DNA from: Candidatus Omnitrophota bacterium
GTDB lineage: Bacteria > Omnitrophota > Gorgyraeia > Zapsychrales > Fredricksoniimonadaceae
Length of the DNA stretch: 37,130 nt
NCBI GenBank assembly: GCA_015233145.1
Contig: JADFYI010000013.1
Span: forward strand, 1-37,130
Reading direction: 5' to 3'
Positions 1,311-18,518 of this stretch are shown one piece after another. The position numbers and the translations under genes are program-made. Positions within the stretch are counted from its first letter, which is position 1. Each line of letters opens with the position of its first letter. The notes under the pieces are model-generated. The model made no database searches and was not told where the DNA came from. It saw nothing but the letters and a program-made list of their open reading frames with translations.

Positions 1311-2249
1311 ATGAAGCATACACACCCTGTTTTTGCCGTGATTCTGACCACGGTTTTCTCGCTGATTTTCTTTTCTTTGGCCCAGGCGGCTGAAATCATC
1401 AACATCAATTATCGCTACAAAGTGGCATTTACAGATCTGACGGAAACTGACGTCAGGGCCAATGACCTGGTGAACGTCACGACATCGGATGGAAAGACTG
1501 TGCATTTGAAAGTTTTGGAAGCTTTTCCGGTGATGGCAAAGTTGACAATTCCCGATGGTGATGAGACCCTCACAGATGACCAGTTTTCCAGGGTTGTGGT
1601 GGGAAGCAAAGTCGTGCCGGCATCGTCAGGGAATCGGACGGCAGCGCCCAAAATAGCGGCTCAGGAATCCAGGCCGCCGCAAACTGCGGCCAAAGAGATT
1701 ACGCGTTCATCAGAGGCCGAGGACGATACCCCGGCCCATGTGGAAAAATATTCTCCAGCCGAGGCTGTGGAGCCTTCTTATAAAACGCCAGTTCAGGAAG
1801 AGACAAAACCGGTTGTTCATGAACCGGTTAAGAAAGATGTTGTGGAAAAGACAGAAGCGTTGAGTGACGCCTCTTCGAAAGACGGATGTTTTGCCCGCAT
1901 GACCGCGCTGGAAACCCGGCTTGACCAGATGATGGCGCATAATGTGAAGCTTACGGAAAATATTTCCCAGCTTTTAACAGAAAAGAACGAAGCCACGGCC
2001 TTGGCCCATGAAAAAGAGGCCAAAGAAGCCGCGGCACGGGCAAAGGCCGAAGATTTGACGTCGCAAAATGGCGCTCTTTTGGAGCGTGTCAAGTCTGCGG
2101 AATCAGCCAAAGCCGCGCTTGAGCAGGATAATGCGGCTGAGCGCAAAGAAATCGAAAATTTAAACTTGAAGCTCGGGGAGCTCAAGAAAAAACTTGCAAG
2201 GATGGTTGAGATCGTTAACGCCAATATGAAAGCCTATGAAAAACAATAA
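1311..2249 (+). CDS. Secreted protein with small N-terminal domain, charged linker and C-terminal coiled coil (unknown function)
   Basis: I do not recognise this family. The frame opens at 1275, but I choose the ATG at 1311 because it has a good ribosome site (AGGAAGG, 1301-1307) and gives a clean signal peptide: KHTH, then a hydrophobic core, then SLAQA before AEI. That makes 312 residues. The mature protein starts with about 75 residues that look like a small beta-rich domain, followed by about 90 residues rich in Pro, Glu, Lys and Ala that should be disordered, with a single cysteine just after (KDGCFAR). The last ~115 residues are heptad-patterned coiled coil ending at AYEKQ. The gene overlaps the giant coiled-coil gene by 14 nt, so the two are probably translated together and may act together, for example as an adaptor or anchor for the giant rod. 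That role is inference. Confidence 0.8.
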   Translation: MKHTHPVFAVILTTVFSLIFFSLAQAAEIININYRYKVAFTDLTETDVRANDLVNVTTSDGKTVHLKVLEAFPVMAKLTIPDGDETLTDDQFSRVVVGSKVVPASSGNRTAAPKIAAQESRPPQTAAKEITRSSEAEDDTPAHVEKYSPAEAVEPSYKTPVQEETKPVVHEPVKKDVVEKTEALSDASSKDGCFARMTALETRLDQMMAHNVKLTENISQLLTEKNEATALAHEKEAKEAAARAKAEDLTSQNGALLERVKSAESAKAALEQDNAAERKEIENLNLKLGELKKKLARMVEIVNANMKAYEKQ

Positions 2250-5200
2250 GCCAGTTTCCCTTCTTCTTGCCGTAACATTCGCCTTTTCAACACTTCCGTA
2301 TCGCTATGTCCTTGCCGAGGACACCAGCGGTATCGTCAAGCAGGACGATATCTTTTTTCTCCAGGAAGATGTGAAAAACCTTAAAACCAAGCTGGCTGTG
2401 AAAGATGCGGAGCTGGGCAAGGCTTTGGCGGAAAAGTCTTCTTTTGAACGTAAGCTCGAGATTGCGGAAAAGGAGCGTTCGCTGCTTGAGGCCAAGGTCG
2501 GCCAGATGCAAAAAAACCTTGTTTTGGAGGGCGGCGAGAATACAACGGTTGCGGAAGTTAAAAAACAGCTGCAGGAAAAAGAGCAGGAATTGAAGCTTTC
2601 AAAGCTTGTACTCGAGGAAAAAAGCGAGCGGTCCTTGAAGCTGGCCAAAGACATTGAGAGCGCGGGCCTGGAAAGCGAAAGGCTTAAAGCAGAACTGCAA
2701 CGCGTTAACGGGGAACTTCAAAGCGTTAAAGACAGCTTGGAAAAACGCGTGGCTGAGGAAAAATCAGGATATGAGTCGAAAATAAAAGATATTCAGGAAC
2801 GGCTCAACGCGGAACAGAAATTCTCCGAAGAAAAAGTCAAGCAGGCCACCTTGCCTCTCGAGGACAAAATCCGTTCGCTGGATTTGAAGGTGGCTGCTAA
2901 AGATGAGGAAGCCCGCACGAAAATGACTGCGGCGACAGCGCCCCTTCAGGAAAAAGTGAACGCTCTGGAAAAACAGCTGGCCGCGGCCAAAACATCAGCT
3001 TCTGATGAGGTTGTTAAAGCCAAAGAATCGTTGCAAAAGAAAATCGAGGCGTTGCAGGGAGAGCTTGCTTCCAGCAAAGAGGCGTCTTCCTCTGAAATAG
3101 AGAAAGCCAAGTCTGCGGCGGAAGCCAGGGTCCATGCCCTGGAAGCTCAGCTTCAAAAGAAAATGGATGAGGCCCAAAAATCCGCAGAAGCCCAGAAAAA
3201 AGGATCAGAGGACACGGTTTCTGGATTGAAAGCGGAAATTGAAAAATTAAAGCAGGATATTACCGGAAAAGAGAGCAAGCTCGCGCAGGCGCTGAAAGAT
3301 AAAGAGGCGCTTTCCAGCCGTTTATCATCCCTGGAAAACGACAAGGCTCTGTTGGCCCAGAAGGCTTCAGGTGACAAGAAAACATCCGAAGACCGTTTGG
3401 CGTCGCTGGACAAGGAACTGGCAGGCGTTAAAGCCTCTGTTGGCGAGAAAGAATCCAGGATTTCGGCGCTGGAGTCCCAAAAAACGTCTTTGCAGAAAAC
3501 AATATCTGAAATGCAGGCTGCTAAAGAAGAAACCGCCAGGCTTGTTGAGGACCTTAAAGCCAAAATTTTTCAAGCAGAGGCTAGGGCCAAAGAGTCTCTC
3601 GAGGTTGCAAAATCAGAAACCCAGAAATCTTTGGAAGCCGTGAAAGCGGAGTCTGCTGAAAAAGTTATTCAGGCCAGGGCTGATGCTCAAAAGGCTGTGG
3701 AAACAGCCAAGGCTGAAGCCCAGAGAGCCATTGAGACAGCCAAAGCCGAGAGGGAGGCCAAAATAATAGAGGCTGATAAAAAGAATGAAGAAAGCCTTGC
3801 TCTTGTTAAGGCAGGAAATGCCAGGGCCAGTGAAGCCCAGGCCAGGGCAGATGCATCTGTGGCTGCCATTAAGGCTGATGCTGCGCAAAAAATTTCCGAT
3901 GCCCAGGCCAAAGCCCAGGCCAGTATAGAGGCAGCCAGGGTTGAGGCCCAAAAAGCCGTGGAAACAGCCAAGGCCGAAGCCAAAAGAGCCCTTGAAGCGG
4001 CAAAAGCTGAGTCAGCTGAACAAATGGCGCAGGTCAATTTAAAGGCTCAGGCCATGATGGACAGCGTTAAAGCTGACGCTGAGTTGAGGATTGCCCAGGC
4101 CAATAAAAAGAGTGAAGAAAGCCTTGCGGCAGCTAAGGCAGAGTCTTTGAAATCGGCGCAGGCTAATGCCAGGGCTGATGAGATTGTTTCTTCTGTCAAG
4201 GCGGATGCGGCAGTAAAAATCAAAGAGGCGAATGCCAGGGCCCAGGCGAGCATTGACGCAGCCAGGGCGGATGATCAAAAACTTTTGGATGCGGCGAAAG
4301 CGGATGCTGCGAGCAAAATTACCCAGGCCAGGGCTGATGCGCAAAAAGCGGTTGAGGCGGTCAAGGCGGAATCACTGGCTGTCATTGATGCGACCAAAGC
4401 CTCCAAAGACCAGGCCCAGGCTGTGTCTGATGCCGAGCTTGCCAGGGCCAAGGAAGAAACTTTAAAGTTGAAGGCGTTTGCGGATGACAAGATCAAAACG
4501 CTGTCTGCTGTTCTTTCTGAAAAAAATAATCTGGAAAAAGAGTTAAGCCGGCAAAAAGCGGAATCCGAAAAATTATCGTCGGATGCTGAAGCGGCAAAGC
4601 AGTCGTTATCCGCGCTTCAGTCTTCGATCCCTGAACGCATTGCCAAAGAAAAGGCGGTGCTGGAAGACAAGATCAGGTCTTTGCAGGCAGAAATTCAAAA
4701 CACTCTTCAAAGCGGCCAGGAAGCCCTGAGAGCTGCCAAGGCTGACGCCCAAAAACAGATTAATGATTTGAACCTCGCGCTACAGGCTGAAAAATCAGCC
4801 TTGCCCGGAAGGCTTAAAGAGTCTCAAGCGCCGTTTGAAGCCAAAATTGCGGAATTAAAGAAGAATTTGGACAATGCCATCCAGGCCGGAAAAGACAAAG
4901 ATAAAATGTACGGTGATCTGGCGCTCGAGTTTAAGGCAGCCAAATTTAATGAAAAAGAATTTAAGTCCTCGCTGGGGGACTTGCAGGCCAAATTTAAAGA
5001 AAATGAGGCCGCCTTACCCGGAAAATTGGCCGAGGCAAAAAAACCTCTGGAAGAAAAGATCAGCCAGCTTAACGGTTCCTTGAACAGTCTGGATCTTGAG
5101 ATTAAAGACAAGGCTAGGCAGATTTCTTCCATCGGGGCGGAAAGAGACGGGCTTTTGAAAGACAAGGCCGCGCTTTCTTCTTCCGTGGCTGAACTTGAGA

Positions 5201-8200
5201 AAAAGCTGGGGACGGCCCAGGCGGATGCCTCTCAAGAAAAGTCTTTTGTTGAAGACGCCATGTCAAAATTAAAGGCTTTTTCCGGCGAGCGTGATAGTTT
5301 GCTTGCCAGGAAAGAATCACTGACACAATCTTTGGCAAAACTTGAAACACAGATGACGAGCGCCAAAGACGAGATCGCGGCATTATCTAAAAATGTTGAT
5401 GCCAAAAACAAAGAAACGTCGGATTTAACAAAAGAGCGTGATGCGCTTTTAAAAGATAAAGAAACTTTAAGCGCAAAGGCTGCCAATTTAAATGCCCTTT
5501 CCCTAAAGACCCAAGAGGATGCCAGGGCCTTAGTTCAGTCGCTTGAACAGTCTATCCCGGTAAAAATTGCTGAGGCTAAAAAGCCGCTTGAAGAAGCCAT
5601 TGGCGGCTTAAACGAGAAGATTAAGAAACTCGACGGGGAAATCATTGATAAAGACCAGGAATTAAAAAATATCAGGGTTCAGCGTGATAATCTGGCCCAG
5701 AAACTGAACAAGCTCACAGCAGATTATGCGTCTTTGGAGGAAAAATCCGGGCTTTTGAAAAACGAGCTTGCTCAGGTCAGGGCGTCCGTTCCCCTGGAGG
5801 TTGAAAAAGCGGTGAAGCCGCTTGCTGCCCAGGTTTCTCAATTAAAAGAGGAAGGGCTTCAAAAAGAAAAGGTTTCGAAAGACCAGATAGCCGCGCTTCA
5901 ATCAAGCTTGGCGGCGACGAAGGCCAAAGCCAAAGACGATGTGGCCATGGCGCAGGAAAAAATTTCTTCTGTGCAGGCTCAGGCCAACAGTCAAATAGCG
6001 ACTGTGCAAGCCAAGGCGAAAGAGGATGTGTCTGCGGCGCAGAGTAAGGCCAAAGAGGAAGCGTCTTCTTTGCAGGCCCAATACAACAGCCAAATAGCGA
6101 CTGTGCAAGCCAAGGCGAAAGAGGATGTGTCTGCGGTGCAGAGTAAGGCCAAAGATCAGCTAGCCGCTATGGAAGCCAAGTCCCAAGAGGATCTGGCCGT
6201 CGTTGAGGCAAAATCCAAAGCCCAGATTTCCCAGGCCCAAAAACGCCAGGCAGAACTTTCCGAGGAGTTAAAGGCCAAAGATCAGGCCTTGTCAGCCAGG
6301 GAAAAGTCTTTAGCTGAAGCGCTTAAAAATATTGATGCCTTGAATAAAGAGATGGCGAGCCTTGGCCAGGAGAAAGCCGCGCTGCTCGCGGAGATTGAAA
6401 AGGCCAAGGCGGCGCAAGCGCAGCTTAATGCGCTTATTCCGCAAAAAGTGAGTGAAGCTCAAAAACCGTTGAATGATAAAATTGCCCAGCTTGAGGCATC
6501 GCTGGATGAGAAATCCGCAGGCCTGGAAGCCAGGAGCAAGGAATTATCTGCGGTCATTTCCAAGCGTGACGATATGGAAAAGGATCTTGCCTCTGCGCGC
6601 GCTGATGGAGAAAAGCTCAAAAAAGATATTATTGCCCTGCAGGAAAAGGCCCGCGATGCCGTCCAATCAGTGCCTGGCAAAGTGGCTGAGGCGGTCAAGC
6701 CGTATCAGGATAAAATCCAGTCTCTTTCTGCCCAGCTTGAGGCGCTCACAAAAACAGAAGCGAGTAAAGAGTCGGAAATTGCTTTCTTAAGCCGCGAGCA
6801 TGATAGTTTGAGCGCCACCCTTGCGAAGGCCTCTAAAGAAAAAGAAGCGCTCGCAAACGATATTTCTTTGGCGCGTGAGAAAATGAAGTCGCTGGAAGAA
6901 TCCATCCCATTAAAAACAGCCCAAACCGCTCTGCCTTTGAACGCCAAAATCAGCTTACTGGAGAAGGCGGCTATTGAACGCGACGAGAGCCTGAAGGCCT
7001 TGAAAGCCTCGAACGCTGAACTTAAATCCACAACAGAACGCCTGTCTTCGGAAAAAACAGCCTTGACTGCAGAAAAAGCAGGGCTGTTAAATGAGCGCAC
7101 CCAGTTAACGCAATCTCTCAAAGATCTTGAAGCTTCAGTCCCTGCCAAAATCGCTGAGGCAAAAAAACCGATAGAAGCAGATTTGTCCGAAGCGCGTGAG
7201 AAGCTGGCGTCATTACAGTCTGCGCTCAAAAGTAAGGAAGAATCACTCAAAGACGCATCCAAACGCGAAGAGGGATTGTCAAAAGACCTGGAGGCTTTAA
7301 AAGCCAAAAAGGCGTCACTGGAGACGGCTTTAAGCGATGCTAAGAATAATATAGAGGCCTTGACCCGGGCGATCCCCCAAAAAGTTGCGGAAGCCCAGGT
7401 GCCTTTGAACGCAAAAATCAGCTCGCTTTCCGACGAAATAAAGGCGCGGGAAGCCGAGGCTGTCCAAAAAGATAATGCGTTTAAGGCCCTGGATGCGGCG
7501 AAAGCGCAAAAAGAAAAAGAATTGTCATCGGCCATCCTTGCGTCACAAAACAAGGCCGCAGATCTGGAAGGCAAATTGAAGGCCTCGGAAGACCAAGCCG
7601 TTTCGCTTAAAGCTTCCATTCCTGTGAAGGTGGCAGAGGTGAGGACAGCCCTTGAAGCCGAAGCTGCCCGGGCGCGTGAAAGAATAGACGTGCTTTCAAA
7701 AGATGCTTTGCAAAAAGCCCAGGCGCTTTCAACGTTAACCCAGGAAAAGGAATCGCTTTTAAAAAGCCTTTCCCAGGAACAGTCGTTACGCCAGAAGCTT
7801 GAAAAAGACCTTGCACAATCAACGGAAAACTTGAAGGGTGTCCAAAACAGCATTCCTGCGAAACTGGCCGAAGTCCGTTTGCCGCTGGAGCAGGAATCTA
7901 AAACGCTTCAAGACAAGCTTTCTTCCCTTTTAAAGGATCTGGGCAAGAAAAACAGCGACCTTGCCGAATCAGAGAAGACCGGTGATGCTTTGTGGAAGGA
8001 ATTGAAAGCAGCCCAGGAGGAGAAGGCAAAGTCTGACCAGGAACTGTCAAAGCTTCGGGCCTGGGTCAAGGGTATGGAAGCGGGCTTGCCCGGAAAGATT
8101 GCGGAAGCTAAAAAGCCGCTGGAAGACAAGATCAATGCCCTGGAAGCAGAAATCCAGTCGCTGACAGCGTCGTTAAAAGATAAGGAAACCTCGCTTAAGG

Positions 8201-11200
8201 CCCTGTCGAATGAATTCAACAACACTTCGGCGCAATTGAAAGCGGAAAAAGAAAAGGCTCAAAAGCTTGCCGGAGACCTTGCTGGCGCGCAGGCGGAATT
8301 GAAGCGGATGACAGAATCAGAGCCTGAAAAACTCGCCTCCGTCCGCACGCCGCTTGAGGCCAAGGTTGCAGATTTTTCCGTCCAGCTTAAAAAAGCCGAA
8401 GAAGAAATCGCTGCAAAAAATGAACAGTTGAAAAAGATAAACGAGGAGTATTCGGCGCAAACAAAAGAGCTTTTGTCGACGGGCGAAGCCAGGGCTGCTG
8501 TGGAAAAAGCCCTGGCCCAGGAGAAAGAGAACCTAAACACGCTTAATGCCAATATCCCGGGCCGTTTGGCATCTGCCAAATTTCCGCTTGAAAAAAAGAT
8601 CGCTGACCTTCAGGAAGAATCCAATAGCCAGAAAAAGGCTTTGAGCGAAAAAGAGTCTCTTTATAACGCCGTGATGAAACAAAAAGAATCCCTGCAGGCT
8701 GAAAAAGAGGCGTTAACAGCGGCCAAGTCCGCCGCAGAACATGATCTTTTCGTGGCCCGCGATAATCTTAAAAAAGTTCAGGACGCTATCCCTCAGATGA
8801 CAGCCCAGGCCCGCCAGCCTCTTGAGGAAAAGGTTAAGGCGCTCGAGTCCCAGGTTTTCGCGAGCAACGAAACCATCAAGGCAAAAGAAAATGCCCTGGC
8901 CTCTCTTAACAAGTCGTACAGTGATCTTGTGAGCAACAAACAGTCTGTTGATGCCAAAGTCTCGTCGTTGGAAAAGGCGCTTTTGGATGCGCAGGCCGCG
9001 TTAAAAAAATCGAACGAATCATTGCCGGCCAAGCTTTCTGAAGCAAAAAAGCCGCTCGAAGAGGCGCTTAATCAACAGCAGGCCACTTTGGAGAAAAAAA
9101 TAGCGGATTTTCAGTTGCAGATGGAAGCCCAGAAAAAGGCTTTTAATGATAAAAACGCGCAGTATAACGATCTGGCCAGGCAGAAAGACGCGCTTGCTGC
9201 TGAAAAGTCAGCGCTTTTGGAGTCGAAAGAGAAAGTTGAACAGGCGCTGGCCCTGGCGCGCGAGGAATTGAAGAAAACCCAGGAGGCTGTCCCCCAAAAA
9301 CTTGCAGAGGTTACAACGCCCCTGCAGGCGAAATCCGATGAGCTCGCAAAACAGTTGGTAGCCAAAGATGCTGAGTTTAAAAATAAAGTGTCAGAGCTTG
9401 AGGCTGTGACGCGTGAGCGTGAGGCCCTGAAGCGCGACACCGATACGCTGTCATTTGCCAAAGCCAAATTGGCTCAGGATGTGGCAGGATTAAACGAGCA
9501 GTTGAAGAAAACCACGGCCAATGTTCCTCTCCAGGTTGAAGCGGCCCAAAAGCCTTTGTCCGAAAAGATTGCGTCGCTTCAGGCAGAGTTGGCGGCGCAG
9601 GAAAAGGCATTAAACGGCAAAGGCAGTGAGTATGCTGCGTTGTTAAAAGAAAAGAATGCCCTGGCTGAAGAAAAGTCTGCGCTGGCCTCGCAGAAAGACC
9701 AGGCCGACCATGCCCTGGCCGCGTTACGCGAGGAATTGAAGAAAACCCAGGAGGCCGTTCCCCAAAAGCTTGCGCAGGCCACGACCCCTTTACAGGAGAA
9801 ATCCGATGGGCTCGCCAAGCAGTTGGCTGCCAAAGATGCTGAATTGAAAAATAAAATATCAGAGCTTGAGGGCGTAACACGCGAGCGTGAGGCCTTAAAA
9901 CATAATATGGAGGCTTTGGCAGCGGAAAAAAGCAGGCTTGCGGTTGATGTCGCTGATATCACTGACCAGCTAAAAAGAGCCACGGCCAGTGTTCCTCTAA
10001 AAGTTGAGGCTTCTCAAAAACCTTTGTTTTTAAAAATCGCCGCGCTTGAAACGAAATTACAGGCCGCGGAAAAGTCGTTAGACGGTAAAGGCAGTGATTA
10101 TGCAGCGCTGTTAAAAGAAAAAAACGCACTCGCTGAAGAAAAGTCTGCGCTGGCCTCGCAGAAAGACCAGGCCGATCATGCCCTGGCTGGGTTGCGCGAA
10201 GAATTGAAGAAAGCCCAGGATGCTGTCCCCCAAAAACTTGCAGAGGTTGCAACGCCTTTGCAGGCCAAGTCCGACGAGCTCGCAAAACAGTTGGCAGCCA
10301 AAGATGCTGAACTTAAAGAAAAAACAGGCCAGATAGAAGCGTCAAAACATGACCAGGAAGAGTTAAAACGCACGCTCGAAAAGTTGTCTTTGGAAAAAAC
10401 AGGGCTTGAAAATCAGGTGACTGCGTTTAATGAAAAAATAAAGGCTCTCACCGATGCGGTGCCGGAAAAGATTTTAGAAGCAGAGAAACCTTTGACCCAA
10501 AAAGTTACGGCCCTTCAGGACGAGCTGGCCAAAGACAAAGAATCCCTGCCGGAGAAACTGGCAGGCGCGAAAAAGCCTTTGGAAGAAAAACTGGAAGCTG
10601 TGAGCGGCCAGGTGAAATCTCTGGACGCGGCTGTTAAAGAAAAAGAGGCTGCGCTTAAAACCCTCGGGAAAGAGCGCGACGACTTAACCCAGCAGCTTCG
10701 CGCGGAAGAAGCCAAGACCTCGAGGCTTACAGCAGCGCTTTCAGCATCCATGGCAGAGTTGAAAAAGACCAATGACGATGTTCCTCAAAAGCTGGCCGTG
10801 ATGCGTCAGCCTTTGGAAGCAGAAATGTTCAAGGCTCAGACCAATCTTGAAAAAACCAGGGCTGAGGTCACGGCCAAGGCCGCCCAGCTCGAAGGGGTTT
10901 CTCACGAGCGTGACACTTTAAAGCAGAACATTCAGCAGTTGTCATCGGAGAAAGAATCTTTGACAAAACAGATTGCGGAACTCAACAATAAAATAAAGTC
11001 TTCGGCCGATGCCTTGCCTGGCCAGTTGAGTGAGGCCCGAAAGCCTTTGGAAGAGACGATTGCCCGCTTAAACGACCAGATGAAATCCATCGAGTCGTCA
11101 GTCCCCGCCAAGGTGGCCGAGGTTAGAGATCCCCTTGAGAAGAAAACAGCGGCATTGCAATCTCAAATTGATGCGCAGTTAAAGGCGCTCAATGACAAGG

Positions 11201-13428
11201 CCCAGCAGTATAACGAGCTTGCGAAAATGAAAGACAGCCTCTTATCGGAAAAAGAGGCGCTGGCTTCTGCCAAACAAAAAACAGAGGGTGAGCTTGCCCA
11301 GGCTCGTGAAGCTTTAAAGAAACTGGAAGGCTCTGTTCCTGAAAAGCTGGTGCAGGCCACCACCCCGCTTCAAACTAAGGCCGACGAGCTGGTAAAGGCT
11401 CTTGACGCCAAAGGCGCTGAGCTTAAAGCCACGCTCGTGGATCTCGAATCAGTGTCGCGCGACCGCGATGGAGTAAAGCGCAGCCTTGAGTCTGCCCTTA
11501 AAGATAAGGATAGCCTTGCCAGCCAGATTGCCGGGCTTAATGAAAAAATAAAATCCGCGGCCGCCTCTGTTACGGACCAGGTGGCAAGCGTGAAAAAGCC
11601 CCTGGAGGAGCGCATCAAATCTTTGGAAGTGCAATCGTCTCTTCAGGCTGAAGACGTGAAGGCCAAGGTGGCATTGATTGACGATGCCCGCCGTAAAAAT
11701 GCCCAAACCGCCAAAGAGTATGAAGCGCTTTTAAAAGAGAAGGAATCCCTGCTGGGGCAGGTGGATTCTTTAAAGAAGGAAGTTGCGGCAAGGGAGGCTG
11801 GCCTGGCCGATAAGCTCGCGCAGGTGCAAAAGCCTCTTCAGGACAAAGTGGGGATCCTTGAAAAAACAGTTTCCGATTATACCGCGCGCCTTCAGGACAA
11901 AGACACGGATGTGGCCAGGTTCAAGGGTGAGAAATCCATGGCCGAAGCGGCTCTTGATAACGAAAAAAAGGCCAGGAGCTCTCTCGAGGAAAAAATGAAA
12001 GACCTTCAGTCCCAGCTGGAAAAGACCGGCACCGGGATTCAGGAGAAGATCGCCCAGGTTCGCGAACCGCTCGAGAAGCACATCAAAGATCTTGAAAATC
12101 AATTAAAAGCGACTGACATTTTGGCAACGTCCAAGATCCAGCAGACCACGATTCCCTTAAATGACAGGATCAGCTTTCTTGAGAATGAACTCAAAACAGC
12201 CCAGGGCGTGCGCACAGAGCAGGAAGGCCTTGTGAAAGACCTTTTGGCCAAGCGCGATGCGCTTTTAAAAAATCTTTCCGAGACTGATGCCGAGCGCCAG
12301 TCCCTGAAAGGCCAGGTCACGGCATTGACAGTCAAGGTTACGGAATTGGAAAATGGCATGCCGGTCAAGCTTGCGCAGGCCAAAGCTCCGGTGGAAACAA
12401 AACTTACCGAGGCCAAAGCCGAGGCTGATCGCTTAAACAACCAAATTGCCAGCCTTTCAACATCGCTTGATGAACGTTCCAAAACCATGAATGAGTTAAA
12501 GGCCCAGAATGCGGATTTGTCCACCAGGCTTGCCGCTCTTTCAGCAGAACGCGCTTCCGCGGACAAGCGTTTTGCAGAGACCAGCGCCGAGCTTAAGAAT
12601 TTCCAGGATTCCATCAGCAAGCGCATCGAAGAGGCCCGCGGCCCCCTGGAACAGACGCTGCATTCACTTGAGAAAAACTTGTTCGAGAAAGAAAACGCCT
12701 TGAAAGACAAGGACGCAGAGATTGTCCGCCTGACAAAAGAGCGCAGTGACTTTGTCCAAAAATTGTCGCGCGCAGATGACCAGCAAAAAGCAGTCGCCCA
12801 ACAGATCGTGGAAGCCAAAGCTCCGCTCGAAAAAGAACTGGCGTCGCTCAAGGCGAACATGGCCGATCTTCAAGCAGTTCAGGTCAACACAAAATCAGCT
12901 TATGAAGACAAGATTGCGGTGCTGAAGAAAGAGGTTGTGAGCCTGTCGGAATCAATCAAGGCGAAAGACGCGCAAATGGCTGACAAGGTTTCTTCCGGTC
13001 GAGCGGACCTTGAACAAAAAGTCGCGGAGCTTGAAAAAGCGTATCAGACCAGGGATATGCAGTTAAAGGAAAAAGAGCTCGCATTATCCCAGGCGGAGTT
13101 AAAGGCAGAGTCTATGGCCAAAGACGCGGACATGATCCGTCAAGACAAGGAAGCGGCGGATGCGGAAAATGCAAAAGTCAGCAGCAAACAAGCGGAGCGT
13201 GACGCCTTGATTAAAGAGCTTAAAGAGTCGCTTGCAAAGCTTAAGGATGAGAAAGCCGCCATAGCAGCCGAGGCGGCTTCTCAAAAAGCCAAGGTCTCTG
13301 ATTTAGAGCAGGCCCTTCGTGCCAAAGATGCGGCGTTAGGTGACGTTCGCCAGAAGGCGGATGCCAAGTCTGAAAACCTGAAGGCTGTCAAAGACGAACT
13401 TCAGGGCGCGATGGAATTGATTAAATAA
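2236..13428 (+). CDS. Giant secreted coiled-coil protein, 3,730 residues, periodic proline hinges
   Basis: The N-terminus is a Sec-type signal peptide: MKNNK, hydrophobic core PVSLLLAVTFAFSTL, probable cut after VLA before EDTSG. Everything after it reads as Lys/Glu/Ala/Leu/Ser-rich coiled coil; I saw no cysteine and very few tryptophans. Sections by residue: five tandem 29-residue repeats (169-313), general coiled coil (314-469), an 11-residue-repeat block (470-720), loosely spaced hinges (about 799-1186), a second 11-residue block (1230-1339), then hinge modules at exact 78-residue spacing (1402-3376), two irregular hinges (3461, 3521) and a hinge-free tail. There is no C-terminal membrane segment, OmpA-like domain, lipobox or sorting signal. 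No Shine-Dalgarno precedes its ATG, which overlaps the upstream stop region, suggesting translational coupling. Fully helical, about 3,700 residues would reach roughly 0.55 micrometre. A structural, tethering or spacer role is inference. A phage tape measure is unlikely given the signal peptide and lack of phage genes. Confidence 0.93.
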   Translation: MKNNKPVSLLLAVTFAFSTLPYRYVLAEDTSGIVKQDDIFFLQEDVKNLKTKLAVKDAELGKALAEKSSFERKLEIAEKERSLLEAKVGQMQKNLVLEGGENTTVAEVKKQLQEKEQELKLSKLVLEEKSERSLKLAKDIESAGLESERLKAELQRVNGELQSVKDSLEKRVAEEKSGYESKIKDIQERLNAEQKFSEEKVKQATLPLEDKIRSLDLKVAAKDEEARTKMTAATAPLQEKVNALEKQLAAAKTSASDEVVKAKESLQKKIEALQGELASSKEASSSEIEKAKSAAEARVHALEAQLQKKMDEAQKSAEAQKKGSEDTVSGLKAEIEKLKQDITGKESKLAQALKDKEALSSRLSSLENDKALLAQKASGDKKTSEDRLASLDKELAGVKASVGEKESRISALESQKTSLQKTISEMQAAKEETARLVEDLKAKIFQAEARAKESLEVAKSETQKSLEAVKAESAEKVIQARADAQKAVETAKAEAQRAIETAKAEREAKIIEADKKNEESLALVKAGNARASEAQARADASVAAIKADAAQKISDAQAKAQASIEAARVEAQKAVETAKAEAKRALEAAKAESAEQMAQVNLKAQAMMDSVKADAELRIAQANKKSEESLAAAKAESLKSAQANARADEIVSSVKADAAVKIKEANARAQASIDAARADDQKLLDAAKADAASKITQARADAQKAVEAVKAESLAVIDATKASKDQAQAVSDAELARAKEETLKLKAFADDKIKTLSAVLSEKNNLEKELSRQKAESEKLSSDAEAAKQSLSALQSSIPERIAKEKAVLEDKIRSLQAEIQNTLQSGQEALRAAKADAQKQINDLNLALQAEKSALPGRLKESQAPFEAKIAELKKNLDNAIQAGKDKDKMYGDLALEFKAAKFNEKEFKSSLGDLQAKFKENEAALPGKLAEAKKPLEEKISQLNGSLNSLDLEIKDKARQISSIGAERDGLLKDKAALSSSVAELEKKLGTAQADASQEKSFVEDAMSKLKAFSGERDSLLARKESLTQSLAKLETQMTSAKDEIAALSKNVDAKNKETSDLTKERDALLKDKETLSAKAANLNALSLKTQEDARALVQSLEQSIPVKIAEAKKPLEEAIGGLNEKIKKLDGEIIDKDQELKNIRVQRDNLAQKLNKLTADYASLEEKSGLLKNELAQVRASVPLEVEKAVKPLAAQVSQLKEEGLQKEKVSKDQIAALQSSLAATKAKAKDDVAMAQEKISSVQAQANSQIATVQAKAKEDVSAAQSKAKEEASSLQAQYNSQIATVQAKAKEDVSAVQSKAKDQLAAMEAKSQEDLAVVEAKSKAQISQAQKRQAELSEELKAKDQALSAREKSLAEALKNIDALNKEMASLGQEKAALLAEIEKAKAAQAQLNALIPQKVSEAQKPLNDKIAQLEASLDEKSAGLEARSKELSAVISKRDDMEKDLASARADGEKLKKDIIALQEKARDAVQSVPGKVAEAVKPYQDKIQSLSAQLEALTKTEASKESEIAFLSREHDSLSATLAKASKEKEALANDISLAREKMKSLEESIPLKTAQTALPLNAKISLLEKAAIERDESLKALKASNAELKSTTERLSSEKTALTAEKAGLLNERTQLTQSLKDLEASVPAKIAEAKKPIEADLSEAREKLASLQSALKSKEESLKDASKREEGLSKDLEALKAKKASLETALSDAKNNIEALTRAIPQKVAEAQVPLNAKISSLSDEIKAREAEAVQKDNAFKALDAAKAQKEKELSSAILASQNKAADLEGKLKASEDQAVSLKASIPVKVAEVRTALEAEAARARERIDVLSKDALQKAQALSTLTQEKESLLKSLSQEQSLRQKLEKDLAQSTENLKGVQNSIPAKLAEVRLPLEQESKTLQDKLSSLLKDLGKKNSDLAESEKTGDALWKELKAAQEEKAKSDQELSKLRAWVKGMEAGLPGKIAEAKKPLEDKINALEAEIQSLTASLKDKETSLKALSNEFNNTSAQLKAEKEKAQKLAGDLAGAQAELKRMTESEPEKLASVRTPLEAKVADFSVQLKKAEEEIAAKNEQLKKINEEYSAQTKELLSTGEARAAVEKALAQEKENLNTLNANIPGRLASAKFPLEKKIADLQEESNSQKKALSEKESLYNAVMKQKESLQAEKEALTAAKSAAEHDLFVARDNLKKVQDAIPQMTAQARQPLEEKVKALESQVFASNETIKAKENALASLNKSYSDLVSNKQSVDAKVSSLEKALLDAQAALKKSNESLPAKLSEAKKPLEEALNQQQATLEKKIADFQLQMEAQKKAFNDKNAQYNDLARQKDALAAEKSALLESKEKVEQALALAREELKKTQEAVPQKLAEVTTPLQAKSDELAKQLVAKDAEFKNKVSELEAVTREREALKRDTDTLSFAKAKLAQDVAGLNEQLKKTTANVPLQVEAAQKPLSEKIASLQAELAAQEKALNGKGSEYAALLKEKNALAEEKSALASQKDQADHALAALREELKKTQEAVPQKLAQATTPLQEKSDGLAKQLAAKDAELKNKISELEGVTREREALKHNMEALAAEKSRLAVDVADITDQLKRATASVPLKVEASQKPLFLKIAALETKLQAAEKSLDGKGSDYAALLKEKNALAEEKSALASQKDQADHALAGLREELKKAQDAVPQKLAEVATPLQAKSDELAKQLAAKDAELKEKTGQIEASKHDQEELKRTLEKLSLEKTGLENQVTAFNEKIKALTDAVPEKILEAEKPLTQKVTALQDELAKDKESLPEKLAGAKKPLEEKLEAVSGQVKSLDAAVKEKEAALKTLGKERDDLTQQLRAEEAKTSRLTAALSASMAELKKTNDDVPQKLAVMRQPLEAEMFKAQTNLEKTRAEVTAKAAQLEGVSHERDTLKQNIQQLSSEKESLTKQIAELNNKIKSSADALPGQLSEARKPLEETIARLNDQMKSIESSVPAKVAEVRDPLEKKTAALQSQIDAQLKALNDKAQQYNELAKMKDSLLSEKEALASAKQKTEGELAQAREALKKLEGSVPEKLVQATTPLQTKADELVKALDAKGAELKATLVDLESVSRDRDGVKRSLESALKDKDSLASQIAGLNEKIKSAAASVTDQVASVKKPLEERIKSLEVQSSLQAEDVKAKVALIDDARRKNAQTAKEYEALLKEKESLLGQVDSLKKEVAAREAGLADKLAQVQKPLQDKVGILEKTVSDYTARLQDKDTDVARFKGEKSMAEAALDNEKKARSSLEEKMKDLQSQLEKTGTGIQEKIAQVREPLEKHIKDLENQLKATDILATSKIQQTTIPLNDRISFLENELKTAQGVRTEQEGLVKDLLAKRDALLKNLSETDAERQSLKGQVTALTVKVTELENGMPVKLAQAKAPVETKLTEAKAEADRLNNQIASLSTSLDERSKTMNELKAQNADLSTRLAALSAERASADKRFAETSAELKNFQDSISKRIEEARGPLEQTLHSLEKNLFEKENALKDKDAEIVRLTKERSDFVQKLSRADDQQKAVAQQIVEAKAPLEKELASLKANMADLQAVQVNTKSAYEDKIAVLKKEVVSLSESIKAKDAQMADKVSSGRADLEQKVAELEKAYQTRDMQLKEKELALSQAELKAESMAKDADMIRQDKEAADAENAKVSSKQAERDALIKELKESLAKLKDEKAAIAAEAASQKAKVSDLEQALRAKDAALGDVRQKADAKSENLKAVKDELQGAMELIK
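2740..3174 (+). repeat. Five tandem 29-residue (87-bp) coiled-coil repeats in the giant gene
   Basis: Residues 169-313 align without gaps as five consecutive 29-residue units starting at 169, 198, 227, 256 and 285. Position 15 of each unit is I or V (SKI, DKI, EKV, KKI, ARV), and the hinge proline occupies position 10 in units 2 and 3 (TLPLEDKI, TAPLQEKV). The same 29-residue step reappears later between hinges at residues 799/828/857, 2743/2772, 2928/2957 and 3269/3298. Twenty-nine equals 11+11+7, a combination compatible with a nearly straight helix bundle. Confidence 0.85.
3643..4395 (+). repeat. Hendecad (11-residue) repeat block in the giant protein
   Basis: Residues 470-720 divide into 21 units of 11 residues plus two units of 10 residues (ARADASVAAI and ARADEIVSSV), with no other slippage. 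Typical units are RADAQKAVETA, KAEAQRAIETA and KADAASKITQA. The two 10-residue units end two longer super-blocks of 76 and 109 residues whose final segments resemble each other (KKxEESL, then an ARAD unit, then a KAD unit). Hendecads favour right-handed or straight packing, unlike the heptad regions around them. Confidence 0.85.
5923..6252 (+). repeat. Second hendecad block with a near-identical 99-bp direct repeat
   Basis: Residues 1230-1339 read as ten consecutive 11-residue units (for example SQIATVQAKAK, EDVSAAQSKAK). Within it, 65 bases at 5992-6056 and 6091-6155 differ at a single position (C/T), giving a 99-bp period, which is three hendecads. The near-identity includes synonymous positions, so it reflects recent duplication or gene conversion rather than protein constraint alone. 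Confidence 0.85.
6439..12615 (+). repeat. Array of 78-residue (234-bp) hinge modules
   Basis: Each module starts with a hinge of the form [SAN]-[IVL]-P-x-K-[LIV]-A-[EQ]-x-x-x-P-L-[EQ], two prolines nine residues apart, followed by coiled coil. First-proline positions (residues) are 1402, 1480, 1558, 1636, 1714, 1796, 1874, 1952, 2030, 2108, 2186, 2264, 2353, 2431, 2509, 2587, 2665, 2743, 2772, 2850, 2928, 2957, 3035, then equivalents at 3113, 3191, 3269, 3298 and 3376. Twenty-two of these 27 intervals are exactly 78; the others are 82, 89 and three of 29. Positions were worked out by codon counting. Confidence 0.88.
9241..10323 (+). repeat. 468-bp tandem duplication inside the giant gene
   Basis: The stretch around the hinge AVPQKLA recurs at 9262, 9730 and 10198 with an exact 468-bp step, which is two 78-residue modules. 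DNA similarity is high: 9659-9720 and 10127-10188 (encoding the EEKSALASQKDQAD region) are nearly identical, including synonymous sites. This is the most recently amplified part of the gene. Confidence 0.85.
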
Positions 13429-13615: not shown

Positions 13616-14689
13616 ATGATAGCTGAGTATCAATATCTGTGGGGCACAATGGCAAGATTCCTTTGGCCTTTTTGCGCATCGGTTTTTGCGGTCATCGTTT
13701 TTACGCCCCTCATGATTTTTATCGCCCGCCGTTTTAACATCCTTGATTATCCTAACGCACGAAAAATTCATACGACACCTGTGCCCCGTCTCGGCGGGGC
13801 AGCGCTTCTTTTGGGGTTTTGGATTGTGGCGCTTTTTAACCTTCCCTGGACCAGGGAATTTTTGGCCATGACAGCGGCCGGAACGATTGTCGGCGTTATG
13901 GGCATCATGGATGATGTGCGCACGCTTTCTTCCCGCATTCGCCTTGTGGGGCAGATTGTTGCCTGCGCGATTGTCATGTCGTCAGGGCTGGTTGTTTCTT
14001 TTATGCCGAAAATCTGGTGGGGCCAGGTGTTCGCGGTTTTCTTTACGATTCTCTGGATTGTCGGCATTACAAATGCCTTGAACTTTTCCGACGGCCTTGA
14101 CGGCCTTGCGTCAGGCATTTCTTTTATTGCGAGCCTGTTTTTCTTTTTAGTGGCGATTTACCTTCGCCAGCTTCCGGTGGCGTTTGCCGCAGCACTTCTG
14201 GCAGGCTCCTGTCTGGGATTTTTGGTCTGGAATTTCAAGCCTGCCAAAATTTATCTGGGTGACGGGGGCAGCACCTTTTTGGGCTTTATGCTGGCGTGTC
14301 TGGCGCTTTATGGAGGATGGTCAGAGCATGGCTGGGTGATTGCCTGCGGAATCCCGACGATCATTTTGGGTGTTTTGGTTTTTGACATGATTTATATCAC
14401 GATCGCGCGGATAAAAAACGGGCAGGTTCGCACCTTTCAGGAGTGGCTTGATTTCACGGGTAAAGACCATTTTCATCACCGGCTGATGAGCATGGGCTTA
14501 AGCGAAGTGATGGCTGTTGTTTTCATTTATCTTGTCTGCCTTATTCTGGGCTTAAATGTGCTGGTTTTGGAGAAATTACATAATCCTTTGGCCGTGACCG
14601 TGCTGTTGATTCAGTCGGTTATGATTTTTCTGGTGATTTTCTTTTTAATGCGTGCCGGCCATGCATTAAAAGACACAAAAAAGAAATAG
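13616..14689 (+). CDS. WecA/TagO-like undecaprenyl-phosphate sugar-1-phosphate transferase
   Basis: A 357-residue multi-spanning membrane enzyme of the MraY/WecA family. It would transfer a sugar-1-phosphate (in WecA, GlcNAc-1-P) from a UDP-sugar to undecaprenyl phosphate on the cytoplasmic face, starting the glycan. Family motifs are all present: the DD pair at 99-100 (MDDVRTL), NALNFSDGLDG at 153-163, LGDGGS at 214-219 and the DHFHHRL loop at 284-290. About ten to eleven hydrophobic segments are visible. The actual sugar cannot be read from the sequence. The start at 13616 has a distant GAAGGG; the ATG at 13649 is an alternative. First gene of the operon, right after the terminator and candidate promoter. 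Confidence 0.93.
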   Translation: MIAEYQYLWGTMARFLWPFCASVFAVIVFTPLMIFIARRFNILDYPNARKIHTTPVPRLGGAALLLGFWIVALFNLPWTREFLAMTAAGTIVGVMGIMDDVRTLSSRIRLVGQIVACAIVMSSGLVVSFMPKIWWGQVFAVFFTILWIVGITNALNFSDGLDGLASGISFIASLFFFLVAIYLRQLPVAFAAALLAGSCLGFLVWNFKPAKIYLGDGGSTFLGFMLACLALYGGWSEHGWVIACGIPTIILGVLVFDMIYITIARIKNGQVRTFQEWLDFTGKDHFHHRLMSMGLSEVMAVVFIYLVCLILGLNVLVLEKLHNPLAVTVLLIQSVMIFLVIFFLMRAGHALKDTKKK

Positions 14690-14697
14690 AGTGGTGG

Positions 14698-15672
14698 ATG
14701 GCTAAAAACGATATTCGTTCGAGAACAATCACTTTTTTGGCCGCTCAAAGCATTATTTTGGGCGTCATCATGCTGGTGTTCATTGTTTTGGCGAGCGTTT
14801 TATTTGTCAAAAACGCGACACGCTGGACGCTTAAAACCATTGAAGATGATGTCCTGATGTTTGTCCAGCAGACCGCGCGCATGGGCGAAATACCTAAGCG
14901 CGGCGATCTGGGCGAGCACACGTTTTTTATCCTGAATCAGGATGGGAAATACGTTTTGCCGAGGCTTTCGCACTCGGATGAGGATGCCAGGCTCTGGCAG
15001 GAATATGAGCTGAAGCTGATTTACGAAATGCAGAAACGGCGCGACGGATGGATTTATTATCCTGAACGTTTTGGCATTGATGAGGGCCAGCATGTGATCC
15101 GTTATATTTATCTTGAAAAACAGGGCTGGATTGTTGCGGCGGAAGGCTACCTTCCGGGTGCCTGGAATATGCTCAAAGGTTTTTTAACGCCGAAACTTTT
15201 TTTGGGCCTGTTTCTTGTGGTGTGCCTGGCGTATGGCCTTATGCTTTTAAATGCTTTCTGGCATTTTCGAAAAATGATGAAAGCGATCTTGCGTTCGCAG
15301 GAAAATAATTTTATTACTGTCCCGAATGCGGTGAAGTCCCTGGCTCCAGAGCCTGTCTTTCATAAGGCCGAAGACCGGCCTTTGAGTGATGGCATGATCC
15401 GTAGCGCCGGAGACCGGGCCCTGCCTAAGACCCGTGTTGAGCGCGAGCGGGCTTATGAAGAAGCGCCGCCCTTAAGCCGCCAGGAGCCGGAAAGTCCTGA
15501 TCAGGGGCTTGAGTTTTCTCATGTTGAGACCAATATGGTTTCTGAAAAAAAGGAAATCGAACAGTTTACGCCCCGTCAGCTTGACAATGTTAAGGGCTCA
15601 ACAATTGATACCATGGATATCCGTTCTCCGTTGTTAAAGAAAGTGATTGAAGAAATGCGGGGGAAAAAATAA
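14698..15672 (+). CDS. Membrane protein with extracytoplasmic Cache-like domain, no output domain
   Basis: A 324-residue protein with one transmembrane helix at about 12-38, an outside region at about 39-162, a second helix at about 163-189 and a charged cytoplasmic tail of about 135 residues. The outside region resembles a single Cache sensor domain: FFILNQDGKYV near 76-86, a GWIYYPERF segment, and near its end VIRYIYLEKQGWIVAAEGY, which is the typical last strand and helix of such domains. Cache domains usually bind small molecules and sit in kinases or chemoreceptors, but here no HAMP, kinase, GGDEF or methyl-accepting module follows. It lies 8 nt after the WecA-like gene and 6 nt before the ATPase gene, so it may feed a signal to the ATPase or HD-GYP protein encoded next. 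The domain call is from pattern; the function is inference. Confidence 0.72.
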   Translation: MAKNDIRSRTITFLAAQSIILGVIMLVFIVLASVLFVKNATRWTLKTIEDDVLMFVQQTARMGEIPKRGDLGEHTFFILNQDGKYVLPRLSHSDEDARLWQEYELKLIYEMQKRRDGWIYYPERFGIDEGQHVIRYIYLEKQGWIVAAEGYLPGAWNMLKGFLTPKLFLGLFLVVCLAYGLMLLNAFWHFRKMMKAILRSQENNFITVPNAVKSLAPEPVFHKAEDRPLSDGMIRSAGDRALPKTRVERERAYEEAPPLSRQEPESPDQGLEFSHVETNMVSEKKEIEQFTPRQLDNVKGSTIDTMDIRSPLLKKVIEEMRGKK

Positions 15673-15678
15673 GCGTTT

Positions 15679-16512
15679 ATGTATACGCAACACTGGCATT
15701 TATATGAAAGGCCTTTTGAGCTGACACCGGATCCCAAATATGTGTACTATTCCAAGGCCCATGAAGAGGCCCTGTTACGGTTGATGTATACGGTCCGGGA
15801 TTCCAAGGGCGCCATGCTTTTAACGGGTGGCTATGGCTGCGGGAAAACCGTGTTGAGCCGTGTCTTTTTAAACGAGCTTGTGGTCGCGGAAAAATACGAG
15901 GTGGCCCTGATCACCAACCCGCGGTATTCGGCGAAAGAACTTTTGGTTGAAATCATTTATCAGCTCGGCGGAGACCGTAACGATTACAAGTCCAAGGGGG
16001 AGCTTCTTCACATTTTCAATGAAATGATTTACCGGAATCTGGAAAAAGGCAAGGAAACCGTTATAGTGATAGATGAAGCGCAGGCGATTGAAGATTTGGA
16101 GACCTTTGAAGAGTTAAGGCTTCTTTTGAATTTTCAGCAGAATAACAGGTTTCTTTTGACCCTGATTCTGATCGGGCAGCCGGAACTGCGTTCGCGCCTG
16201 AAGGGTCTGCCGCAGCTCAAGCAGCGGCTGATCATCGAATATCATTTGAATCCTTTGGATGAAAAGGACTGCTATCAGTATATTGATCATCGCCTCAAGA
16301 TCGCCGGGGCAGGGCGGGAGATTTTTGACAATAAGGCCAAGCAGCTGATCTTCAAGCATTCGAGCGGGATTCCGCGCGTGATTAATGGGCTGGCCGATAC
16401 CGCCCTTTTGGTGGGGTTTTCGGAAAATAAAAAAGTTGTCGATGATCAATTAATGAAGCGCGTCTTTGAAACAAGCGGCGCGCTTGAGGGGCATGTTCCA
16501 TGGTCCGCCTGA
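15679..16512 (+). CDS. ExeA/GspA-type AAA ATPase
   Basis: A 277-residue cytoplasmic P-loop ATPase of the ExeA-like family. The start, MYTQHWHLYERPFELTPDP, is the family's conserved N-terminus. Walker A is GGYGCGKT at 50-57, Walker B VIVIDEAQ at 128-135, and the sensor region is LILIGQPELR near 162-171. Unlike ExeA it stops after the ATPase core and has no transmembrane or peptidoglycan-binding part. Stand-alone proteins of this kind are common members of exosortase-associated exopolysaccharide loci, which suits the neighbours here. Its partner is unknown; the overlapping HD-GYP gene is the obvious candidate. Confidence 0.88.
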   Translation: MYTQHWHLYERPFELTPDPKYVYYSKAHEEALLRLMYTVRDSKGAMLLTGGYGCGKTVLSRVFLNELVVAEKYEVALITNPRYSAKELLVEIIYQLGGDRNDYKSKGELLHIFNEMIYRNLEKGKETVIVIDEAQAIEDLETFEELRLLLNFQQNNRFLLTLILIGQPELRSRLKGLPQLKQRLIIEYHLNPLDEKDCYQYIDHRLKIAGAGREIFDNKAKQLIFKHSSGIPRVINGLADTALLVGFSENKKVVDDQLMKRVFETSGALEGHVPWSA

Positions 16513-17633
16513 TTAAGATTATTAAAAACAGTTTCAAAAGGTCCAGGGAGGCCGCAGGCCCAGACAGCCAGGTGGTCTCAGGCGCTTCAGGGATGCCGCA
16601 GCCTTCCGCGCCACCGGCGCCCATCGGGAGCGTCCGCAGCGCAGAAAATCCGTATCGCAGAAAATCGTCCTCGCAATCCAGCGCCCCGGAAACGCAGGAA
16701 ACTGTTGAGCGTATTTCAGGGCTTAAAGATCTTTATCGTGACCTTCAGGCTGCCGTGGAGTGCGCCCTGACCGGCATCATTGCCCGTCAAAAAGTTGAAG
16801 ATGTGATCGCTCACGTTGTGCATGCCTTTGAAAAAAGGCCTTACAACGAGCTTCTTGTGATGGCGTATGCTTTTTCCAAAAACAATTATCTGGCATCACA
16901 TATTACCAATGATGTCATTTTGTCCGTCGGATTTGCGGCCAGCTTAGGCTACAGCCGCCAGGAAATGATTGACCTGGGGGTTTGCGCCTTTACCCATGAC
17001 CTGGGGATGTCGGGGTTTGACGGCGTTGTCAAAAAAGGCCAGCAGCTGTCTGACCAGGAAATTGAAGACATCAAGCAGCATCCGTTACGTTCCGCGGAAA
17101 TTGTCAGGCCTGTTTTTTCCGAAAAAGTGGCTGCGGTTGTTTTGGATGTCCATGAACGCGAAAACGGCCAGGGGTATCCGCGCGGCATCCCCGGCGCGGA
17201 AATCCATTTATGGGCCAAGATCATTTCAGTGTGTGACACGTTTGAGGCATTAACACATCCCCGGGTTTTTCGAACACCTTACAGCCCCTATGAGGCTATG
17301 AAAATTATTATTAAGAAAAAAGACATTCTTTTTGACGACACCATTGTCAAAAGGTTCATTGATTTTATTTCGATTTATCCTGTGGGTTCTTTTGTGTATT
17401 TAAACAGCGGGGAGACGGCCATGGTTGTGGGGAGTAACGCCGGGTTTCCCACAAGGCCGATGGTCAAGATTCTGGTGAATGAAAACCGTGAGCTGGAAGA
17501 AGGGCTCAGGATTATTGATCTTGCCAAACAGGATTTTGTGTATATCAGCGGCGCTGTAGAGCCGGAAAGAGAAAGAGACATTGACCATTTTCTTAAACCT
17601 CGCGGGTTGGCGGTGACGGATGAACTGGCATAA
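16500..17633 (+). CDS. HD-GYP domain protein with partly substituted active site
   Basis: A 377-residue protein whose central part (about 90-300) is an HD-GYP domain, the family that hydrolyses cyclic di-GMP and related signals. Visible motifs are H134 (SHITNDV), H166-D167 (THDLGM), H194 (KQHPLRSAE), VHERENGQGYP at 217-227 and D246 (CDTFEAL). Two usual residues are changed: the lysine of HDxGK is M170, and the first histidine of the HHE motif is V217, so a metal ligand is missing. It may therefore be weakly active or act as a binding protein. The first ~65 residues are basic and Pro/Ser-rich with no receiver domain. The start overlaps the ATPase gene by 13 nt and has GAGGGG at 16486-16491. 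It likely ties polysaccharide export to a cyclic-nucleotide signal. Confidence 0.9.
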   Translation: MVRLIKIIKNSFKRSREAAGPDSQVVSGASGMPQPSAPPAPIGSVRSAENPYRRKSSSQSSAPETQETVERISGLKDLYRDLQAAVECALTGIIARQKVEDVIAHVVHAFEKRPYNELLVMAYAFSKNNYLASHITNDVILSVGFAASLGYSRQEMIDLGVCAFTHDLGMSGFDGVVKKGQQLSDQEIEDIKQHPLRSAEIVRPVFSEKVAAVVLDVHERENGQGYPRGIPGAEIHLWAKIISVCDTFEALTHPRVFRTPYSPYEAMKIIIKKKDILFDDTIVKRFIDFISIYPVGSFVYLNSGETAMVVGSNAGFPTRPMVKILVNENRELEEGLRIIDLAKQDFVYISGAVEPERERDIDHFLKPRGLAVTDELA

Positions 17634-18504: not shown

Positions 18505-18518
18505 GGGCTATCCTTAAG

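Follow-up and report, generated by a model that had tools for sequence, protein, structure and literature searches.

What kind of protein is encoded by an 11.2 kb gene of Candidatus Omnitrophota whose product carries pairs of prolines at a distance of exactly 78 residues, and what could such a spacing mean for the shape and the role of the protein? The gene lies in a window of 37,130 nucleotides, which is one entire contig of a 1.81 Mb genome (58 contigs, 80% complete). All sequences used here are metagenome assemblies.

Layout of the giant protein

The features of the gene and of its product are given below, with residue numbers for the protein.

2236-13428, + strand: open reading frame of the giant exported coiled-coil protein, 3,730 aa
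2236-2319, + strand: Sec-type signal peptide, residues 1-28, ending ...RYVLA/ED, without lipobox (from the sequence)
2320-2940, + strand: conserved N-terminal helical domain with a QDxxFF motif, residues 29-235, with single-proline hinges at 198 and 227
3553-4635, + strand: Ala-rich coil (28% Ala), almost without prolines, residues 440-800, core period ~3.62
4630-6438, + strand: irregular hinges at residues 799, 857, 928, 1108 and 1186; intervals 58, 71, 180, 78 and 216
6439-7620, + strand: run 1, hinges 1402, 1480, 1558, 1636 and 1714; four intervals of 78, then 82
7621-9291, + strand: run 2, hinges 1796 to 2264; six intervals of 78, then 89 (hinge positions; AlphaFold model)
9292-10461, + strand: run 3, hinges 2353 to 2743; five intervals of 78; holds a recent two-unit (156-residue) duplication
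10462-10548, + strand: 29-residue hinge module, residues 2743-2771
10549-11016, + strand: run 4, hinges 2772 and 2850; two intervals of 78
11017-11103, + strand: 29-residue hinge module, residues 2928-2956
11104-12039, + strand: run 5, hinges 2957 to 3191; four intervals of 78; the last two without the first proline
12040-12126, + strand: 29-residue hinge module, residues 3269-3297
12127-12795, + strand: run 6, hinges 3298, 3376 and 3461; intervals 78, 85 and 60
12796-13371, + strand: last hinge (3521) and the C-terminal coil beyond it
13372-13425, + strand: conserved C-terminal motif NLKAVKDELQGAMELIK; in relatives ..VTNALELLQVP and ..LDSAIDLLNNIK

Past the signal peptide, the protein has no membrane-length hydrophobic stretch (maximal 19-residue hydropathy of 0.86 beyond residue 40). 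The Ala-rich stretch is probably a straighter segment of the coil; it is made of AKAEAQKAVET-like repeats, unlike the heptad-rich units. The whole protein contains no cysteine and two tryptophans.

The proline pairs follow an exact clock of 78 residues

A preliminary description of this DNA had reported a spacing of exactly 78 residues in 22 of the 27 intervals between residues 1402 and 3376, and once more at 1108-1186. Our recount of the 28 sites gave the same numbers, the remaining intervals being 82, 89 and three of 29, and the outlying interval at 1108-1186 is indeed present. Both prolines (P-x8-P) are found at 23 of the 28 sites. The second one is absent at site 1796 and the first one at sites 3113, 3191, 3269 and 3298; these five one-proline sites retain the remainder of the motif, and counting across them had been right. 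In residues 1391-3400, 39 of the 51 prolines have another proline exactly 78 residues downstream, against 1.3 expected, and a chance origin of the spacing is excluded. The autocorrelation that had been named as a check peaks at lag 78 for proline (0.79, z ~36), and lag 78 also comes out on top for hydrophobic residues (z ~22) and for charge (z ~11.5). All 64 prolines after the signal peptide occupy hinge position +0 or +9, so that the coil, described earlier as proline-poor outside the hinges, contains no other proline there at all, which is stronger than what had been claimed. The hinges at 799, 857, 928, 3461 and 3521 and the single-proline forms at 198 and 227 extend the pattern; these outlying hinges, the elementary spacing of 29 residues and the relatives with the same pattern were absent from the preliminary description. 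Finally, the hydrophobic core has a Fourier period of 3.55, which fits 22 stripes per 78 residues.

A 29-residue joint followed by whole heptads

Related giants were scanned with a position-specific matrix built from 146 P-x8-P sites. Being seeded on proline pairs, this matrix biases the detection of prolines and not their spacing; a reversed matrix is invalid as a decoy since P-x8-P is symmetric. Among the 451 intervals of at most 140 residues in 18 proteins, 29 was found 183 times, 78 was found 129 times and 71 was found 18 times. Other intervals were 18 (14 times), 107, which is 29+78 (12 times), and 58, which is twice 29 (10 times), with more besides. In total, 354 of the 451 intervals equal 1 modulo 7, and the counts of 78, 71 and 85 stand at 129 : 18 : 3. 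The matrix was trained on 14 of the 18 proteins, and those outside the training repeat the pattern (65 intervals of 78 and 30 of 29), nearly all of it coming from G038, G063, G069 and G078.

Column profiles of 133 units place hydrophobic stripes at positions 0, 4, 7, 11, 15, 18, 22, 25, 29, 32 and so on to 74. The first 29 positions of the unit are the same as the stand-alone 29-residue module, with steps of 4, 3, 4, 4, 3, 4, 3 and 4, or 3.625 residues per stripe; this module corresponds to two hendecads and one heptad, in other words to two stutters and a heptad. The remainder of the unit, positions 29-78, is made of seven plain heptads. Fillers of 0, 6, 7 and 8 heptads give 29, 71, 78 and 85 residues, respectively. 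The elementary building block is therefore a joint of 29 residues to which n heptads are added, with a strong preference for n = 0 and n = 7, and the giant's family has P-x8-P joints at such 29+7n intervals. Within the joint, the prolines sit just past stripe 0 and just ahead of stripe 11. The hydrophobic seam is in phase across the joints: each joint adds a skip of one residue through its two stutters, and the seam therefore continues. Insertions are mostly of +1 (two stutters) or +4, unlike the 2- or 6-residue heptad insertions of the alpha/beta coiled coil. Lys or Arg occupies the core positions 32, 43 and 57 in 78, 55 and 72% of the units of family f1 and in 64, 47 and 55% of those of family f5, against ~3% at other core positions.

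The joints look weakened rather than broken

The preliminary description had proposed that the prolines break the helix and divide the protein into stiff segments joined by kinks. Residues 1784-2293 were modelled as a monomer by AlphaFold2 with an alignment of ten rows of non-overlapping runs; such a ten-row model without partner chain cannot settle bending. In this model, the helix runs unbroken through six of seven hinges, with a single DSSP break at hinge 2030 (local position 246), and the confidence, averaged over blocks, drops to a local minimum at all six internal hinges. The minima and the one break agree with this proposal, whereas the continuous helix at most hinges and the in-phase seam do not. 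A model in which the P-x8-P sites leave the helix uninterrupted had been named as its refutation; that situation was found at most sites, which appear as weak points and not as helix ends.

Could the protein nevertheless be a chain of independent stiff rods of 11.6 nm, in which the proline pairs end the helix, flexible hinges join the segments and their equal length is selected? With two prolines in each joint and none elsewhere, Ser or Thr ahead of some prolines that could serve as helix N-caps, the confidence minimum at every internal hinge with one DSSP break and a length of 78 retained in two diverged families, this deserves consideration. However, the predicted helix is continuous at six of seven hinges, and free hinges do not require an in-phase stripe or intervals of 29+7n; we regard it as unlikely, though seriously possible. 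Kinked or weakened joints appear likelier than separate rods, given the helix predicted through six of seven hinges and the in-phase seam. Nine residues at 100 degrees bring the two prolines to opposite helix faces, ~180 degrees apart, so their kinks should largely cancel; by this geometry, each pair would give a softened jog, without bends adding up along the rod.

A zigzag bundle, in which every proline pair would reverse the chain and the helices would pack antiparallel as in a spectrin array, would benefit from equal segment lengths and could have the prolines at its turns. It is very improbable, as segments of 29 and 78 are freely mixed (for instance 78, 29, 29, 71 in G063), leaving neighbours unequal in length, the hydrophobic stripe stays in phase across the hinge and AlphaFold predicts what is essentially a single long helix for the monomer.

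The family occurs in one order of Omnitrophota

Related giant coiled coils are not confined to one gene and occur across one order of Candidatus Omnitrophota. A profile of the 78-residue unit matches 25 of the 81 genomes of the order (E <= 1e-8), and when 237 genomes were drawn evenly from the phylum, all matches at E <= 1e-8 fell inside the order. Among these 237 genomes, all from one phylum, the family is found only in this order. The C-terminal motif of the giant matches records named Candidatus Omnitrophota, Candidatus Omnitrophus sp. and Candidatus Elulimicrobium sp. Whole-protein BLAST between orthologs was too generic to establish the orthology of units and was discarded.

Family f3 keeps an almost pure 29-residue clock (55 hinges in G024 and 42 in G029). 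The f3 and f4 relatives with this 29-residue proline clock are encoded at a different locus, beside trmB. The giant coils seen beside trmB are L017:6474-12485, L018:7545-12359 and L019:5930-12760, and their clock is nearly perfect in f3.

The N-terminal domain also stands alone, as proteins of 280-320 aa in many relatives, so the array looks as though it had been elaborated from a small helical protein that is exported. The giant's own genome has a second short N-domain protein (291-295 aa) without array (G000:C33:137796-138344; L047:6703-7578). Short N-domain homologs (L047, L030, L029 and L054) were seen near CcdA-like or thioredoxin-type genes and a glycyl-radical activating enzyme; these recurring neighbours form a context different from that of the giant.

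Length of the unit and length of the protein

The statement that sequences have diverged while segment length has not was borne out: the mean identity of 78-residue units is 24% within and 20% between proteins, and that of their bodies 22% and 17%. Copying is also at work. Residues 2353-2508 were recently duplicated to 2509-2664 (9292-10227), with body identities of 0.64 and 0.83, so the array grows by multi-unit copies, and unit copies within one protein are up to 98% alike. Selection on segment length, as suggested earlier, is plausible, but it is confounded by the register, which favours 29+7n, and by block duplication. The constant length is partly mechanical since the register disfavours most other lengths and duplication spreads units.

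At the extreme, 78 itself would have no function, tandem block duplication having spread the unit and register-breaking indels having been purged. The two-unit duplication in the giant gene, with its body identities, the nearly identical copies found within one protein, the large share of intervals equal to 1 modulo 7 and the very variable total length all go in this direction. Nevertheless, 71 and 85 also fit the register and are far rarer than 78, different families share three conserved polar positions of the core and both 29 and 78 persist, so we consider a functionless 78 improbable. That 78 is kept far above 71 or 85 in two families diverged to ~17% body identity favours selection. Since the register alone allows 71 and 85, both rarer, and the core Lys/Arg are shared by the two families, the comparison of sequences points to the 78-residue unit as a conserved design and not a by-product, and its length would have a selected function.

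In contrast, the molecular ruler raised earlier finds no support in the sense of a fixed total length, which varies widely: the complete partner-linked genes encode 598 (G066), 1,687 (G061), 3,730, 3,913, 4,119 and 5,134 residues.

A partner gene and an exopolysaccharide neighbourhood

Two features of the window flank the giant gene:

1275-2249, + strand: partner gene, 324 aa, sharing 14 bases with the start of the giant gene
13616-20783, + strand: exopolysaccharide-export cluster with conserved synteny, downstream of the giant gene

The partner consists of a signal peptide, a small beta-strand domain (EIININYRYKVAFTDL...), a disordered linker and a C-terminal helix of 120 residues. Both giant and partner have signal-peptide-like N-termini. 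The partner domain is kept upstream of the giant in two families and present in 18 of the 81 genomes of the order; the array was found in 16 of these 18 genomes against 9 of the 63 without it (Fisher p = 7e-9). According to match coordinates, partner and array lie on one contig within ~6 kb in 15 of the 16 genomes. In G070, the beta-domain is fused to the hinged coil in one open reading frame (L059:2969-4597), which suggests that partner and coil normally work together. The nine array genomes without a partner match, among the 81, and the separate locus of the f3 and f4 relatives count against the explanation that we favour below. A fold search with a low-confidence model of the beta-domain gave no PDB match at E <= 0.001.

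The downstream cluster encodes a WecA/MraY-like transferase, a two-TM protein, an AAA_22 ATPase (XrtA-system-like), an HD protein, a polysaccharide-export protein and a Wzz/tyrosine autokinase. This exopolysaccharide (EPS) synteny was found in G006, G022, G001, G003, G069 and G061, the genes being arranged alike in G006 of family f1 and in G069 and G061 of family f5. The XrtA/PEP-CTERM components TIGR03015, TIGR03027 and TIGR03007 match, all below the curated NCBIfam cut-offs. No exosortase was found in the 80%-complete host genome, and one is present in 12 of the 24 genomes searched. EPS synteny alone does not prove function.

Comparison with known systems

The preliminary description knew of no bacterial family with this layout. 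This held: all Pfam matches are below cut-off, the PDB profile matches listed are generic coiled coils, and the literature gave no described match to a proline-hinged giant coil. Among the PDB matches listed, none covers the proline pair, all beginning at or after unit position 11. The giant coiled-coil rod is a known kind of protein; its proline-jointed version appears to be new.

The myosin II rod is a long heptad coiled coil with +1 skip residues at set distances, which relax its supercoil. The giant is likewise a long heptad coil broken at set distances by +1 skips. However, the myosin II skips are without a proline pair and cytoplasmic, the skip of the giant is a 29-residue proline module used dozens of times, and no homology was found, the Pfam myosin tail family being absent from the giant's matches. 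Myosin-like packing by charge is not supported either: a charge-stagger scan showed strong repulsion at a stagger of 78, and none of the long staggers was clearly favoured. In apolipoproteins A-I and A-IV, 11/22-mer amphipathic helices are punctuated by prolines at regular intervals; unlike the giant, they bind lipid, have a 22-residue period and lack heptad filler, and the giant has no Pfam match to them.

Omp-alpha of Thermotoga maritima has an SLH domain and a C-terminal membrane anchor. In the giant, the Pfam scan detected no SLH domain, and a C-terminal membrane anchor is absent (no hydrophobic stretch after residue 40). Like the giant, Omp-alpha is an exported bacterial coiled-coil rod, about tenfold shorter at ~50 nm, and it was proposed to be an envelope spacer (PMC5082667). 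Giantin and the other golgins differ from the giant in being eukaryotic and in having a C-terminal transmembrane anchor. To our knowledge, they have no proline clock. These tethers form a coil of ~0.5 micrometre whose length is kept while the sequence diverges (PMC5082667). Within the phylum, giant open reading frames of >20 kb were described by Seymour et al. 2023 (PMC10066038), transmembrane helices or adhesion domains being present in many of them. The gene studied here is, like them, very large and poorly annotated, and it differs in its 11.2 kb length and in encoding a coil only, no transmembrane or adhesion domains being found. The main text of that survey does not mention coiled coils.

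Proposed role

The account that we favour, and to which we would give about an even chance, is that the giant is an exported alpha-helical coiled-coil rod, linked to its partner, that serves as a semi-flexible scaffold or spacer of the envelope or capsule and keeps its register through the proline joints. It starts from observations, namely the repeat rule, the core pattern, the signal-peptide-like N-termini, the partner linkage and the EPS synteny; dimerization, kink geometry, location and function are what we infer. With Ile or Val at a, Leu at d and Lys/Asn in the core, the rod would probably be a parallel dimer. It would be built from one 29-residue joint and a variable filler of whole heptads, and made together with the small beta-domain/coiled-coil partner from the exopolysaccharide locus. 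In the cell envelope or the capsule, this long and semi-flexible rod would most likely serve as scaffold or spacer, and its reach may have changed in evolution by gain or loss of units.

A cytoplasmic cytoskeletal rod resembling intermediate filaments, of the crescentin or FilP type, is extremely unlikely in view of the signal-peptide-like N-termini of giant and partner and of the exported-polysaccharide context, despite weak Pfam matches to Filament (22.2 bits, cut-off 40) and Rod_CreS (17.3, cut-off 100; gathering scores), both below cut-off. A more elaborate form of the exported rod, which we consider quite doubtful, is a quantised, register-coded fibre: a polar-core code (Lys/Arg/Asn at 32, 43 and 57) and a joint in each unit would allow chains to associate either in register or with an offset of whole units. 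Long fibres of overlapping chains could then form in the capsule or envelope, the 29-residue module acting as a flexible link. If true, bacteria would have an extracellular filament system that exceeds giantin in length and has no relation to pili or S-layers.

If the scaffold or spacer reading is right, these proteins would be among the longest known coiled coils, with 3,730 to 5,134 aa and ~0.55 to 0.76 micrometre when fully extended, in bacteria reported as mostly ultra-small cells. The 29-residue joint plus n heptads would be a natural design rule for rods of any length with register kept, useful for protein design, and the family would offer a handle on the envelope or capsule of an uncultured phylum.
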